From Blastococcus sp. PRF04-17 (GTDB lineage: Bacteria > Actinomycetota > Actinomycetes > Mycobacteriales > Geodermatophilaceae): DNA of 64,000 bases. Of the stretch, positions 42,482-47,537 are shown piece after piece (within the stretch, counting starts at the first letter, position 1; every line of letters starts with the position of its first letter). The notes below the pieces were generated by a model. The model saw only the letters and a program-made list of their open reading frames with translations, searched no databases and was not told the origin of the DNA. The stretch spans positions 1,550,001 to 1,614,000 of the forward strand of contig NZ_CP095412.1 of NCBI RefSeq assembly GCF_023016265.1. Reading direction: 5' to 3'. The position numbers were made by a program, and so were the translations under genes.

Positions 42482-44236
42482 TCACCGCAGGCGGCGGGTG
42501 CTGTCGGGCAGCCGCACGGTCACACCCTGTGCGTCGAGCCACTCCATGAGCGGGACGGCGACCCGGCGGCTCGTGCGCCAGGCCCGGCGCGCCTGGCTGA
42601 CGGTGAACGGCTGCTCGATGCCGGTCAGGCGGGCGCGGGCCTGCTCGGCGATCCCGGGCGCGAGGTAGACGCCCTCGGCGATGCGGATCAGCTGGCCGCC
42701 GCGCACCGCTGCCGCCAGCTCGCGCGCGCCGAGTCCCGCCGCCTGCAGGTCCGGCGCCTCCGGGGCGGCGAACGGGTCGTCGGCGAGCCGGGTGCGCACG
42801 GCGTCGACCGCACGCTGCACATGCGGGGGCAGGTCGGCCGCACCGTCCACCACCCGTCCCTCGCGCAGCTCGAGCGGTGACCGGACCACGGCACCGACCA
42901 GGTCGGCGTCGGGCAGGTCGAGCGCCCGGCGGACCACCTCCGTCGGGGGCCCGGGCTCGAGCGGGCGGAGCCTGCGGTACCGGACGACGACGTCGGGCAC
43001 GCGGGCCGCCAGTTCGTCGGCCAGCCCCGCAGCCAGCAGCCAGCGCCCGTGCACGGCGGCTCCCGCCGGCACCGGCCAGCCCATGGCGGCGAAGTCGTCG
43101 GCCCGCACGATCCGGCGGCGCGCCAGGTCGGCCGCCGCACCCGCCGCCCCTCCGGGCTGGGCCACGAGCTCGGCGGCGCGCTGCCGGGCGGCGCCCCGGC
43201 GGCGCAGCTCCGGCGGCGCGACGTCGCGGACGTCGGCCCCGAGGACCCGGCGGGTGCCCGGCTCCCGCAGCAGCAGCCGGTCACCGACCCGCAGCGGCAG
43301 CGCGGCGTTCAGCCGCAGCCGGACGACCGGGCCCTCCAGGGGGCGCAGCCGGGCGCCCACCGTGGCCGAGCCGACGTGCACGACGGCTTCGGTGGGCAGC
43401 CGGCCCTCGGGCGCCCCGGCGAGGGTGACGTCCACGGTGCCGGTCGCGCGGAACGCACCCGGCGTCAGCAGCGCGTCCCCCCGGGAGAGCTCCTCGACCG
43501 CGATCCCGCGCAGGTTGAGCGCGACCCGCGCGGTCGCCGCCGCGCTCGGGACCGCCTCGCCGAGGGACTGCACGCCCCGGACGGCCGCCTCGCGATCGCC
43601 GAGCTGCAACCGGTCGCCGACGGCGACGGAACCCGCCGCGAGGGTTCCGGTGACGACGGTGCCCGCGCCCCGGATGGTGAAGGCCCGGTCGATCCACAGC
43701 CGGACCGGCGCGGCGGTGTCGGCCGCCGGCAGCCCCGCGAGCAGGTCGTCGAGGGCGGCGGTGAACCCGGACAGCCCGGCGCCGGTCACCGCGCTGACGG
43801 CGACGGCGGGGACCTCGCCCATCGACGTCGTCCGCAACCGGTCGCGGACGTCGGCCAGCACAGGTGCGGGATCGGCGAGGTCGGTCTTGGTGACGGCGAG
43901 CAGCGCGTGCCGCACGCCGAGGGCGTCGAGGACGGCGACGTGCTCCCCGGTCTGCGCCGACCAGCCGTCGTCGGCGGCGACCACGAGGAGCGCGGCCGGC
44001 ACCGACCCGACGCCGGCGAGCATGTTCCCGACGAACTTCTCGTGGCCCGGCACGTCCACGACCGCGAGCCGGCGCCCTGAGGGCAGCGTCGTCCAGGCGA
44101 AGCCCAGGTCGATGGTGAGCCCGCGCCGCCGCTCCTCGGCCCAGCGGTCCGGCTCCATGCCGGTCAACGCGCGGACCAGCGCGGACTTGCCGTGGTCGAC
44201 GTGACCGGCCGTCGCGACGACGTGCATGCCGGTCAC
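42482..44236 (-). CDS. selB: Selenocysteine-specific elongation factor
   Basis: 584 residues. EF-Tu-like G domain: TAGHVDHGKSALVRALTG, DVPGHEKFVGNMLAG, VTKTDL; then beta-barrel domains (FTIRGAGTVVTGTLAAGSV), and a C-terminal set of winged helices ending FTVSQARRAWRTSRRVAVPLMEWLDAQGVTVRL, which bind the SECIS hairpin. SelB carries Sec-tRNA to a recoded stop codon next to a SECIS. Start overlaps selA stop (ATGA). With a CUA-anticodon selC nearby, this SelB should act at UAG. Confidence 0.96.
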   Translation of the reverse strand: MTGMHVVATAGHVDHGKSALVRALTGMEPDRWAEERRRGLTIDLGFAWTTLPSGRRLAVVDVPGHEKFVGNMLAGVGSVPAALLVVAADDGWSAQTGEHVAVLDALGVRHALLAVTKTDLADPAPVLADVRDRLRTTSMGEVPAVAVSAVTGAGLSGFTAALDDLLAGLPAADTAAPVRLWIDRAFTIRGAGTVVTGTLAAGSVAVGDRLQLGDREAAVRGVQSLGEAVPSAAATARVALNLRGIAVEELSRGDALLTPGAFRATGTVDVTLAGAPEGRLPTEAVVHVGSATVGARLRPLEGPVVRLRLNAALPLRVGDRLLLREPGTRRVLGADVRDVAPPELRRRGAARQRAAELVAQPGGAAGAAADLARRRIVRADDFAAMGWPVPAGAAVHGRWLLAAGLADELAARVPDVVVRYRRLRPLEPGPPTEVVRRALDLPDADLVGAVVRSPLELREGRVVDGAADLPPHVQRAVDAVRTRLADDPFAAPEAPDLQAAGLGARELAAAVRGGQLIRIAEGVYLAPGIAEQARARLTGIEQPFTVSQARRAWRTSRRVAVPLMEWLDAQGVTVRLPDSTRRLR

Positions 44237-45540
44237 CGTGCGGCGACCGCCAGCACGGCCGCGGTCAGGTCGTCGTCCGCCTCCGGGGGCAGGCTGCGCA
44301 GGTCGAGCAGCGTCCGGTCGCCGTCGACGTGTCCGACGACCGGAGGCGCACCGTGCCGCAGCGGTGCGGCGAAGCCGGCGGGGAGCGAGATCGCCGCGCT
44401 GGGCAGCGGGTGCTCCGGCGCTCCTCCCCCGCCCACCCGTGCCTGGCTGTCGACCGCGCGGGCGTCCACGCCGGCGGCGATCAGCCGGGCGGCGATCCGG
44501 TCGGCCCGCGCGCGCAGGTGCGCCGGATCCGCAGCCAGCATCTGCTGGACCGGCGGTCGCGGGCCCCGCAGCGTCGCCTCGAGCCCGGCCAGCGTCGTCT
44601 TGTCGACCCGCAGCGCGCGGTAGAGCGGGTGGCGGCGGAGGCGCTGGACCAGATCGGCGCGGCCCAGGACCAGCCCGGCCTGCGGCCCGCCGAGCAGCTT
44701 GTCGCCGCTGGCCAGCACGAGGTCCGCGCCGGCGGCCAGCGTGGACTGCGCGTCCGGCTCCTCGAGCAGGAGCGCATGGGACTCGAGGAGGCCGGAGCCG
44801 ATGTCGGCGACCAGCGGCGTGCCCGTGCCCGCCAGTGCGGCGGCCAGCTCGGCCACCGCGACCTGCCGGGTGAAGCCGCGGACGACGAAGTTCGACGGGT
44901 GCACCTTGAGCACCGCGCCGGTGTCCGGGCCCAGCGCGCCCCGGTAGTCGCCGAGGGTCACGCGGTTCGTCGTCCCGACCTCGCGCAGCCGGGCGCCGGT
45001 GGTCACCAGGAGGTCCGGGATCCGGAAGCCGTCGCCGATCTCGACGAGCTCGCCGCGGGCGAGGACCAGCTCCTTGCCCTGCCCGAGCGCGGTCGCCACC
45101 AGGGCGAGCGCGGCGGCGCAGTTGTTCACCACGAGCGCCGCCTCGGCCGCGGGGACGGCGGCGAGCAGCGCGGCGATCGCCGCCTCCCCGCGCGGGCCGC
45201 GGCGGCCGGTAGCGAGGTCCAGCTCGACGTCGGTGGTGCCGCTGGCCGCCACCACGGCCTCGACCGCGGCCGGCGACCAGGGCGACCGGCCGAGGTTGGT
45301 GTGCACGAGGACGCCGGTGGCGTTGAGCACCGGCCGCAGGCTGCTGGCCGTCGACGGCAGGGACGCGAGGACGGCGGGCACGGCTTCCGGCGGGGCGACC
45401 TCGCCGTCGCGGATGCGCTGCTGCACCCGCTGGACGGCGTCCTTCACCAGGCCGCGGCCGAGCCGTTCGCCGGCGGCGGCCAGCTGCGGATCGGCGAGCA
45501 GCGTGTCGGTGCGGGGCACCTGCCGGCGGTGATCGCTCAT
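44233..45540 (-). CDS. selA: L-seryl-tRNA(Sec) selenium transferase
   Basis: 435 residues. The PLP lysine is K281 in SGDKLLGGPQAG; other family blocks are LNATGVLVHTNLGRSPW, VELDLATGRRGPRG, VNNCAAALALVATAL, KVHPSNFVVRGFT and LVADIGSGLL. It converts Ser-tRNA(Sec) to Sec-tRNA(Sec) using selenophosphate. It starts 42 bases after the 3' end of selC, so selC-selA-selB are probably one transcript. Confidence 0.96.
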   Translation of the reverse strand: MSDHRRQVPRTDTLLADPQLAAAGERLGRGLVKDAVQRVQQRIRDGEVAPPEAVPAVLASLPSTASSLRPVLNATGVLVHTNLGRSPWSPAAVEAVVAASGTTDVELDLATGRRGPRGEAAIAALLAAVPAAEAALVVNNCAAALALVATALGQGKELVLARGELVEIGDGFRIPDLLVTTGARLREVGTTNRVTLGDYRGALGPDTGAVLKVHPSNFVVRGFTRQVAVAELAAALAGTGTPLVADIGSGLLESHALLLEEPDAQSTLAAGADLVLASGDKLLGGPQAGLVLGRADLVQRLRRHPLYRALRVDKTTLAGLEATLRGPRPPVQQMLAADPAHLRARADRIAARLIAAGVDARAVDSQARVGGGGAPEHPLPSAAISLPAGFAAPLRHGAPPVVGHVDGDRTLLDLRSLPPEADDDLTAAVLAVAAR

Positions 45541-45582: not shown

Positions 45583-45678
45583 TGGCGGAGGCGGACGGGA
45601 ATCGAACCCGCCTGACCGAGCTGCTCGGCCACGTCGGCTTTAGAGGCCGCGGGGGTCACCAGACACCCTGACGCCTCC
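45583..45678 (-). tRNA. selC: tRNA-Sec with CUA anticodon (reads UAG)
   Basis: The minus strand begins GGAGGCG and ends CGCCTCC, then G (Sec discriminator) and an encoded CCA, 96 bases in all. The D hairpin has a long stem with a TGGT tetraloop. The variable arm is a 7-bp stem (GGCCGAG with CTCGGTC), the hallmark of serine-type and Sec tRNAs. T arm is GCGGG-TTCGATT-CCCGT. The anticodon loop is CTCTAAA, so positions 34-36 are CUA, not the usual UCA. The position next to selA/selB makes the identity secure. The eighth acceptor pair is a U-C mismatch. Confidence 0.95.
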
Positions 45679-45727: not shown

Positions 45728-46339
45728 ATGTCAGAGGCCGGTGCCAGCATCCGCCGCGTGAGCCGAACCGAGCCCCGTCCCGCCGCTCCCCTGCCGCCGG
45801 TCGCCCTGACGCCGGAGGAGGCAGCCGCCGTCGCCGTCGCGCTGGCCGCCGGTCCCGACGGGCCGTACGCCGCCGACGGCAGGACGGCGCTGGAGAAGGT
45901 GCTCGAGGTGCTCGAGCCCGATCCGCGGCGCCGCGCGCAGCTGCTGGCCACCAGTCTCTGGGTCAGCGCCGAGGCCGACCGCAGCGAGCAGGTCCGCGCG
46001 CTGCTCGAGCAGGCGGTCACCCGCCGGCGGGTGCTCGTGCTGCGCTACCGGGACCGGCAGGACCGCGCATCGCGCCGGGAGGTCGAGCCGCAGGCGCTGG
46101 TCCGCAGCAGCGAGCACTGGTTCCTGGTCGCCTGGTGCCGCGAGCGGCAGGCGATGCGCTGGTTCCGGCTGGACCGCGTCGAGAGCGCCGAGACCACCGA
46201 CGAGGCGGCGCCGAGGCGCGACCTCACCGACGTGGGCGCTCCCCCGGCGTCCCGCCACCCCGCGGGCCGGGCACTGCGCACGCCGCCGGCCCCGACCGGT
46301 CCGCCCCGGCTCGTCGTCCTCCCCGGCGGTCGCACCTGA
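45728..46339 (+). CDS. WYL-domain protein without a helix-turn-helix
   Basis: 203 residues from ATG (GTG at 45758 is an alternative). The middle reads ALEKVLEVLEPDPRRRAQLLATSLWVSAEADRSEQVRALLEQAVTRRRVLVLRYRDRQDRASRREVEPQALVRSSEHWFLVAWCRERQAMRWFRLDRVESAE, which is a WYL domain with its linker. The N-terminal DNA-binding domain of ordinary WYL regulators is absent. It is divergent from selC. WYL domains sense nucleotides or nucleic acid ends; whether it controls the sel genes is not known. Confidence 0.8.
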   Translation: MSEAGASIRRVSRTEPRPAAPLPPVALTPEEAAAVAVALAAGPDGPYAADGRTALEKVLEVLEPDPRRRAQLLATSLWVSAEADRSEQVRALLEQAVTRRRVLVLRYRDRQDRASRREVEPQALVRSSEHWFLVAWCRERQAMRWFRLDRVESAETTDEAAPRRDLTDVGAPPASRHPAGRALRTPPAPTGPPRLVVLPGGRT

Positions 46340-46529
46340 TCGGTCCCCGGCGCAGACCTCGGCCATCTCGGCCATCTCGGCCAGGTCGGTGAGGTCGCCC
46401 GACGATGCCCGCCCCTCGGCGACCGCGGCGCGCAGCAGCAGCACGACGAGCAGCCGCTCTCGCACGGGTTCTCCTGGGACGACCGGCTCATGATCACGTC
46501 TGCCGACCGTGGCGGCTACCGTCGTCGGC

Positions 46530-47537
46530 GTGACGACCGCACCCGCCCGTGTCCGGCTCACCCAGTACGCGCACGGCGGGGGCTGCGCCTGCAAGATCCC
46601 GCCCGGCGAGCTCGAGGCGGTGGTGGCGGGGCTGACCGCCGCCGGACCGGCGGCCCCGAACGCGGAGCTCGTGGTGGGCCTGGACGACGGCGACGATGCC
46701 GCCGTCGTGCGCATCGCCGGGGGCCAGGGACTGGTGCTCACCACCGACTTCTTCACCCCGGTCGTCGACGACGCGTACACGTTCGGCCGGATCGCGGCCG
46801 CGAACGCGCTGTCCGACGTCTACGCGATGGGCGGCACTCCGGTCGTGGCGGTGAACCTGCTCGGCTGGCCGCGCGACGTGCTGCCTGCCGACCTGGCGGC
46901 CGAGGTGCTGCGGGGTGGGCTCGAGGTTGCCCAGGAGGCCGGCTGCCACGTCGGCGGCGGTCACTCGATCGACGACCCCGAGCCCAAGTACGGCATGGCG
47001 GTCACGGGGTTGGTGGACCTCGACCGCGTCATCCGCAACGACGCGGCGGTCCCGGGGACGGCGCTGTCGCTCACCAAGCCCCTGGGTGTCGGCGTCCTCA
47101 ACAGCCGGATGAAGGCCACCGGCGAGGTGTCGGAGGCGGCGGTCGCCTCGATGACCGCGCTCAACCGCGAGGCGGGCCGGGCTGCCGTGGCCGCGGGCAT
47201 CCGCGCCGGCACCGACGTCACCGGCTTCGGGCTGCTGGGGCACCTCTACAAGATGGCGCGGGCCAGCGGCGTCACCGCGGTCGTCGACGCGGCCGCCGTC
47301 CCCTACCTGACCGGCGCCCGCGAGGGCCTCGCCGACGGCTTCGTCTCGGGCGGCACCCGGCGCAACCTCGACTGGGTGCGGCCCCACGCCGACCTGTCCG
47401 CGGTGTCCCAGGACGAGGCCCTGCTGCTCGCCGACGCGCAGACCTCCGGCGGTCTGCTGCTGGGCGGGGAGGTCCCTGGCGCCCCGGTGATCGGCGAGTT
47501 CGTCCCTCGCGGGGAGCACGTCGTCGTCGTGCGCTGA
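46530..47537 (+). CDS. selD: Selenide, water dikinase
   Basis: 335 residues from the GTG at 46530 (46509 is possible). The active site HGGGCACKIPP has Cys19 and Lys22; LTTDFFTPVVDDAYTFGRIAAANALSDVYAMGG, GGHSIDDPEPKYGMAVTG and TGFGLLGHLYKMA are conserved. It makes selenophosphate from selenide and ATP. The Cys form means that SelD itself is not a selenoprotein here. Completes the selABCD set. Confidence 0.96.
   Translation: MTTAPARVRLTQYAHGGGCACKIPPGELEAVVAGLTAAGPAAPNAELVVGLDDGDDAAVVRIAGGQGLVLTTDFFTPVVDDAYTFGRIAAANALSDVYAMGGTPVVAVNLLGWPRDVLPADLAAEVLRGGLEVAQEAGCHVGGGHSIDDPEPKYGMAVTGLVDLDRVIRNDAAVPGTALSLTKPLGVGVLNSRMKATGEVSEAAVASMTALNREAGRAAVAAGIRAGTDVTGFGLLGHLYKMARASGVTAVVDAAAVPYLTGAREGLADGFVSGGTRRNLDWVRPHADLSAVSQDEALLLADAQTSGGLLLGGEVPGAPVIGEFVPRGEHVVVVR

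Follow-up and report, generated by a model that had tools for sequence, protein, structure and literature searches.

The window, a 64,000-nucleotide stretch of the Blastococcus sp. PRF04-17 chromosome, contains a selenocysteine (Sec) tRNA gene, selC, surrounded by the genes for Sec synthesis and delivery (Table 1). The gene is 96 nt long and reads on the minus strand as a tRNA with a long variable arm and a G73 discriminator before an encoded CCA. Rfam assigned it to the tRNA-Sec family RF01852 with 66.8 bits against a gathering cut-off of 47, and it is the sole match over the cut-off in an Rfam search of the whole 4,585,415-base genome. ARAGORN detected the gene and labeled it 'tRNA-Pyl (cta)', a label that goes with the anticodon. 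The pair 31:39, which closes the anticodon loop, is C-G. The gene lacks the usual UCA anticodon and has CUA instead, which defines it as a UAG variant. UCA is usual, not obligatory, for bacterial tRNA-Sec, and CUA forms are included in PMC5330540. A preliminary description of this DNA had noted the long variable arm, the G discriminator, the encoded CCA, and the CTCTAAA loop with its CUA anticodon; the sequence, ARAGORN, and Rfam confirm each of these features. Its placement of the tRNA beside selA and selB is likewise confirmed by profile matches, and selD adjoins too. The N-terminal motif of the translated SelD contains Cys rather than Sec. The WYL-domain protein encoded between selC and selD is probably unrelated to Sec decoding.

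Table 1. Features of the selC locus, the formate dehydrogenase gene, and the two tRNA-Sec genes of Geodermatophilus sp. LHW52908. Plain coordinates are window positions.
Feature	Coordinates	Strand	Evidence
selC, tRNA-Sec, anticodon CUA, G73, encoded CCA	45583..45678	(-)	ARAGORN; Rfam RF01852, 66.8 bits; sequence reading
Anticodon CTA (CUA) of selC	45641..45643	(-)	ARAGORN and sequence reading
Anticodon loop CTCTAAA of selC	45639-45645	(-)	Sequence reading
selA, L-seryl-tRNA(Sec) selenium transferase	44233..45540	(-)	TIGR00474, 426.9 bits
selB, Sec-specific elongation factor	42482..44236	(-)	TIGR00475, 286.3 bits
selD, selenide water dikinase	46509..47537	(+)	TIGR00476, 387.4 bits
WYL-domain protein between selC and selD	45728..46339	(+)	PF13280, 67.8 bits
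fdhA, TAG at the Sec site	C1:2895188-2895190 (= L013 5189-5191)	(-)	ORF and NF041513 match
UCA tRNA-Sec of LHW52908, complete	C17:1173-1263 (in L209, G117:C17:1-16000)	(-)	81.8 bits
Native CUA tRNA-Sec of LHW52908	L325, G117:C11:15836-15927		Family tRNA-Sec survey

The formate dehydrogenase (FDH) gene, fdhA, lies ~1.28 Mb from the window on the same chromosome. A single TAG, located at the Sec position (QARI-TAG-HSATVPGLG), interrupts its otherwise open frame, and the 905-amino acid ORF 3' of the TAG fits positions 192–1067 of NF041513 with 1535 bits. A gene for a 4Fe-4S protein comes next after fdhA. The preliminary description had proposed Sec insertion at selected UAG codons and had named, as the place to look, an FDH whose Sec codon is an in-frame TAG with a SECIS hairpin behind it; both the codon and the hairpin are present, and the proposal holds at the sequence level. 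The TAG at the expected place in FDH also argues, as had been suggested, that the CUA anticodon is not a sequencing error. We looked for an FDH with TGA or with Cys only, and for a UCA anticodon on re-reading of the selC locus, and found none of them in this genome. A Molydop_binding search of the genome gave three matches, one of which is the FDH. The match at C1:968132 (L012) is closest to a NasC-type nitrate reductase and lies next to NirB, and the third match is NuoG.

The SECIS hairpin of fdhA consists of a 7-bp stem, formed by positions 15–21 and 27–33 numbered from the T of the TAG, and a 5-nt loop that starts 18 nt after the TAG. The GGUCU loop and the 18-nt distance agree with those of E. 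coli fdhF. Pairing was scored across 35 distinct FDH TAG sites (56 loci), where 244 of 245 pair cells are paired, a statistic that, like the other pairing counts given here, partly reflects codon constraint. When the partner strand is shifted by 1 or 2 positions at the same sites, 106–148 cells are paired. The layout is identical at 14 distinct TAG sites of a second protein family, UGSC (96 of 98 cells paired). In 20 chosen FDH and UGSC sites, 97.9% of the cells are paired and all 7 pairs show changes on both sides. Shuffling, a test that ignores kinship, never reached the observed values of four measures in 500 trials, and it reached the fifth, which concerns further pair types, in 5 of them. 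The 22 distinct TGA-type FDH sites have 141 of 154 cells paired, with the lowest pair missing in 12, and the stem is not kept in two Cys-type FDHs (8 of 14 cells).

A SECIS model built from 20 FDH and UGSC sites, this genome's FDH among them, was used to search the genome. The FDH site scored 61.3 bits, as expected for a member of the model, and the informative quantity is the gap to the next match at 23.1 bits, whose sequence does not read as a SECIS. The pattern of a TAG, 18 nt, and the loop fits none of the 17 weaker matches in or around them, and we did not detect a second UAG-Sec site with the same SECIS layout in the genome using this model. A scan for a stop codon, 18 nt, and a hairpin was negative for the window, for L209-L221, and for L252-L255. 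Two other proteins were considered as candidates. The UGSC protein of this genome is a Cys form, and none of the four AhpC-TSA matches has an internal stop. FDH is therefore the only putative UAG-Sec gene found in this genome by searches that could miss genes with a different SECIS.

The relationship between codon and anticodon was examined across relatives. The tRNA-Sec was read at the best 80 loci of a SelA scan of named genomes, which gave 26 CUA, 39 UCA, and 15 stretches without a tRNA-Sec. The 26 CUA loci come from records named Blastococcus, Geodermatophilus, Modestobacter, Trujillonella, Klenkia, Goekera, Geodermatophilaceae, and 'Bacillus sp. AZ43'. FDH was searched in 32 of these 80 genomes (26 CUA and 6 UCA) at a threshold of E 1e-100. 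FDH has TAG in 26/26 CUA genomes and TGA in 5/6 UCA genomes; the sixth, Kribbella, gave no FDH match at this threshold. The GTDB family of the window has FDH in 100 of 112 genomes (120 rows), and all 114 rows that span the Sec site, from 97 genomes, contain exactly one stop, a TAG. Base-by-base reading of 56 loci (49 distinct 1-kb sequences) always placed the TAG at the Sec codon, and the rest of the 114 were counted by stop. At the order level, FDH was matched in 206 of 298 genomes. Among the rows listed, those of the family have TAG and those of other families have TGA or no stop, except G280; two of the rows with no stop were read and have Cys. The FDH of G280 (L160, C4) is of the TGA type but also contains a second stop, a TAG at a Gln position that precedes the Sec codon by eight codons; this TAG looks like a chance nonsense change or a sequence error. 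UGSC is represented in the family by 94 rows from 54 of 112 genomes, and the other 58 gave no match at E 1e-15. A single TAG is present in 72 UGSC rows, no stop in 22, and TGA in none; in the 22 of these 72 that were read, the TAG is always at the UGSC motif. As judged from these sequences, codon and anticodon covary across the family, and UGSC appears to be a second protein family that has switched too.

UAG is also found as a stop codon. A home-made codon-based caller predicted 48 genes in the window, of which 42 end in TGA, 5 in TAG, and 1 in TAA, and some of the five TAG genes score low. The UGSC gene of this genome terminates in TAG, and RF1 is present (477 bits) without internal stops. 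Because UAG ends genes and RF1 is present, UAG is predicted to have two meanings here that are set by the SECIS context. A global reassignment of UAG to Sec, in place of context-dependent recoding, is very unlikely: it would fit the minor share of UAG among the window's stops (5 genes compared to 42 with TGA), but the same five genes, as called, and the UGSC gene do end in TAG, RF1 is intact, and the Sec sites carry a conserved hairpin. Even less credible is a pyrrolysine tRNA that reads UAG as pyrrolysine, as the ARAGORN label has it; that label comes from the anticodon, whereas the gene matches Rfam tRNA-Sec, adjoins selA, selB, and selD, has closely similar counterparts with UCA in other actinobacteria, serves a UAG that occupies the Sec position of a known selenoenzyme, and has a long variable arm where tRNA-Pyl has a short variable loop. 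The notion of a degenerate or erroneous selC alongside an FDH pseudogene with a nonsense TAG has a negligible likelihood as well. An in-frame TAG would normally break a gene, and the extra TAG of G280 does resemble chance nonsense or error, but CUA occurs in 101/112 family genomes with one TAG in every spanning FDH row, the frame is open on both sides of the TAG, the hairpin is conserved even though both strands of its pairs have changed, and UGSC shows the same.

The interpretation that we favor is that selC encodes a tRNA-Sec that reads UAG, the UAG of fdhA is Sec, and a UAG without a SECIS stays a stop, and this is almost certainly correct as far as sequence can tell. The sequences directly show the CUA tRNA, its Sec factors, the FDH codon that matches it and the hairpin there, as well as the family covariation, RF1, and the UAG stops. 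Charging, insertion, and competition with RF1 we infer from the known pathway. Serine would be loaded onto the CUA tRNA-Sec, SelA would convert it to Sec with selenophosphate made by SelD, and SelB would deliver the Sec-tRNA to the ribosome at a UAG with a downstream SECIS hairpin, so that the in-frame UAG of fdhA would be read as Sec. A UAG lacking a SECIS would be read by RF1 as a stop, and Sec insertion would therefore compete with RF1, not RF2.

The origin of the CUA anticodon was traced by reading all 110 tRNA-Sec matches above 60 bits in the 112 family genomes. CUA is found in 101 genomes, UCA only in 7, and neither in 4; one of the 101 (G117) has both. The recurrence of the same loop in 101 of 112 genomes agrees with the earlier statement that a single-base error does not explain CUA. 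Two matches in G372, which bring the number of matched genomes to 109 of 112, are both serine tRNAs. Five of the 25 second matches at 49–52 bits were read (G370, G371, G372 twice, and G373), and their loops identify them as serine tRNAs. Pair 31:39 is C-G in every CUA tRNA read and U-A or U-G in the matched UCA tRNAs, which suggests that this pair changed together with the anticodon. The UCA genomes are G367, G369, G370 (g77), G371 (g78), and G373-G375 (g79). These seven are fragmented assemblies of 190–550 contigs with 2–5% contamination, and their family placement is the GTDB grouping. FDH (NF041513) gave no match in them at the threshold used. Four of the seven have sel genes on the contig that carries the UCA tRNA (selA and selB in L210-L213; selD in L210 and L211). 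Contamination or acquisition of the sel genes from elsewhere is a possible source of UCA in g77-g79. With UCA retained in three genera that the collection assigns to the GTDB family, the switch appears to have taken place within that family.

A quick SelA tree was calculated from 52 of 86 sequences, with g77 left out. The CUA rows form one clade with an SH-aLRT of 100, corresponding to one anticodon change. The four rows from g78 and g79 cluster together, apart from the CUA clade, in a tree whose deep forks are unsure. The SelA tree and the family tRNAs support a single origin of CUA/UAG from UCA/UGA.

The codon before the Sec codon was compared among the gene types. ATA precedes the FDH UAG in all 56 loci (49 distinct 1-kb sequences), and it is rare elsewhere: downstream of the UAG it makes up 6 of 1583 Ile codons of these FDH genes (~0.4%), and in the window genes 4 of 483. 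The codon before TGA in 23 TGA-type FDH loci is ATT in 20, ATA in 2, and GTT in 1. The UGSC UAG is preceded by GAT in 13 and GAC in 9 of 22 sites, and GAT accounts for 65 of 1030 Asp codons in the window genes. These counts point to an apparent preference for A or U as the base that precedes the Sec codon, perhaps through release-factor competition or mRNA structure. A strict requirement for A or U at this position in every UAG gene is contradicted by the 9 of 22 GAC codons in UGSC.

Geodermatophilus sp. LHW52908 (G117, the same as G008, with identical FDH coordinates) has a UCA tRNA-Sec besides its CUA one. The UCA gene is located near the end of the 69-kb contig C17, together with IS21-, IS30-, and IS3-type transposase genes. 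The GC content of C17 is 0.64 at the tRNA end and 0.72–0.79 beyond 16 kb, and that of C11 is 0.778. This climb along the contig indicates that the region may be a chromosomal island rather than a contaminant. SelA, SelB, SelD, FDH, and UGSC were not detected on C17 by tblastn, and a looser stop/hairpin scan of the contig gave four sites that resemble chance. The full scenario, in which the anticodon, pair 31:39, and AUA before UAG switched as one package inside the family, and LHW52908 later regained UCA and may read both UAG and UGA, is tentative and on balance rather unlikely.

UAG-Sec decoding was reportedly described by Mukai et al. in 2016 in Geodermatophilus and Blastococcus, with a CUA tRNA-Sec and UAG in FDH and UGSC, and Sec insertion is said to have been reported there for relatives. 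The genome studied here resembles that system in its CUA tRNA-Sec, the UAG in FDH, and the bacterial family, and differs in having Cys in its UGSC protein and no UAG-Sec gene found besides FDH. It belongs to GTDB genus g1, compared to g2 for B. xanthinilyticus; g1 also contains records named Blastococcus. SelA, SelB, SelD, and the SECIS are shared with canonical E. coli-type UGA/UCA decoding, whereas UAG and RF1 here replace UGA and RF2, and the tRNA loop and pair 31:39 differ. PMC5330540, PMC10778597, PMC8124441, and PMC5133445 cite the Mukai 2016 UAG-Sec work. PMC5330540 (Secmarker) describes three Geodermatophilaceae genomes with CUA tRNA-Sec, FDH, and UGSC, and adds a UAG AhpC in B. saxobsidens, unlike the uninterrupted AhpC-TSA matches here. 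The preliminary description had regarded the variant as known, and this source bears that out: the genome has the published Geodermatophilaceae UAG-Sec variant, not a new system. In E. coli, engineered UAG-Sec with tRNA-Sec(CUA) is SECIS-dependent and about equal in activity to UGA/UCA according to PMC3834832. The complementary CUA and the SECIS at UAG are common to both systems, engineered there and natural and clade-wide here. A search of the literature on Geodermatophilaceae UAG-Sec, with most subscription papers, Mukai 2016 included, outside its scope, identified PMC5330540 and PMC5133445 as addressing this topic and found no mention of in-family UCA genera, the 31:39 change, the AUA context, or a second tRNA, which is a weak indication that these features, the last seen in LHW52908, are new.

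This natural code variant extends throughout one clade, with relatives that keep the ancestral anticodon, a UGSC family that switched too, and one genome, LHW52908, possibly holding both tRNAs; the steps of a stop-codon swap for Sec are thus testable by comparison. In these bacteria, standard tools truncate FDH and UGSC at the UAG, and they may name selC a tRNA-Pyl.

Three records stand apart. Six family FDH rows start after the Sec site, and two of these, the first containing 2 TGA and the second 1 TAG, come from G196 (genus g6; L356 and L357). In both G196 copies the region of the Sec codon and the SECIS is missing, with a frame change at that point and a right-hand edge common to both, reflecting either a real loss or an assembly fault. 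In the G349 draft genome, each of two contigs carries a CUA tRNA-Sec gene (L281 and L208), possibly through assembly redundancy. The record named 'Bacillus sp. AZ43' (L016, marked unverified) has CUA, and its SelA clusters with that of Blastococcus in the tree; the name is very probably wrong.
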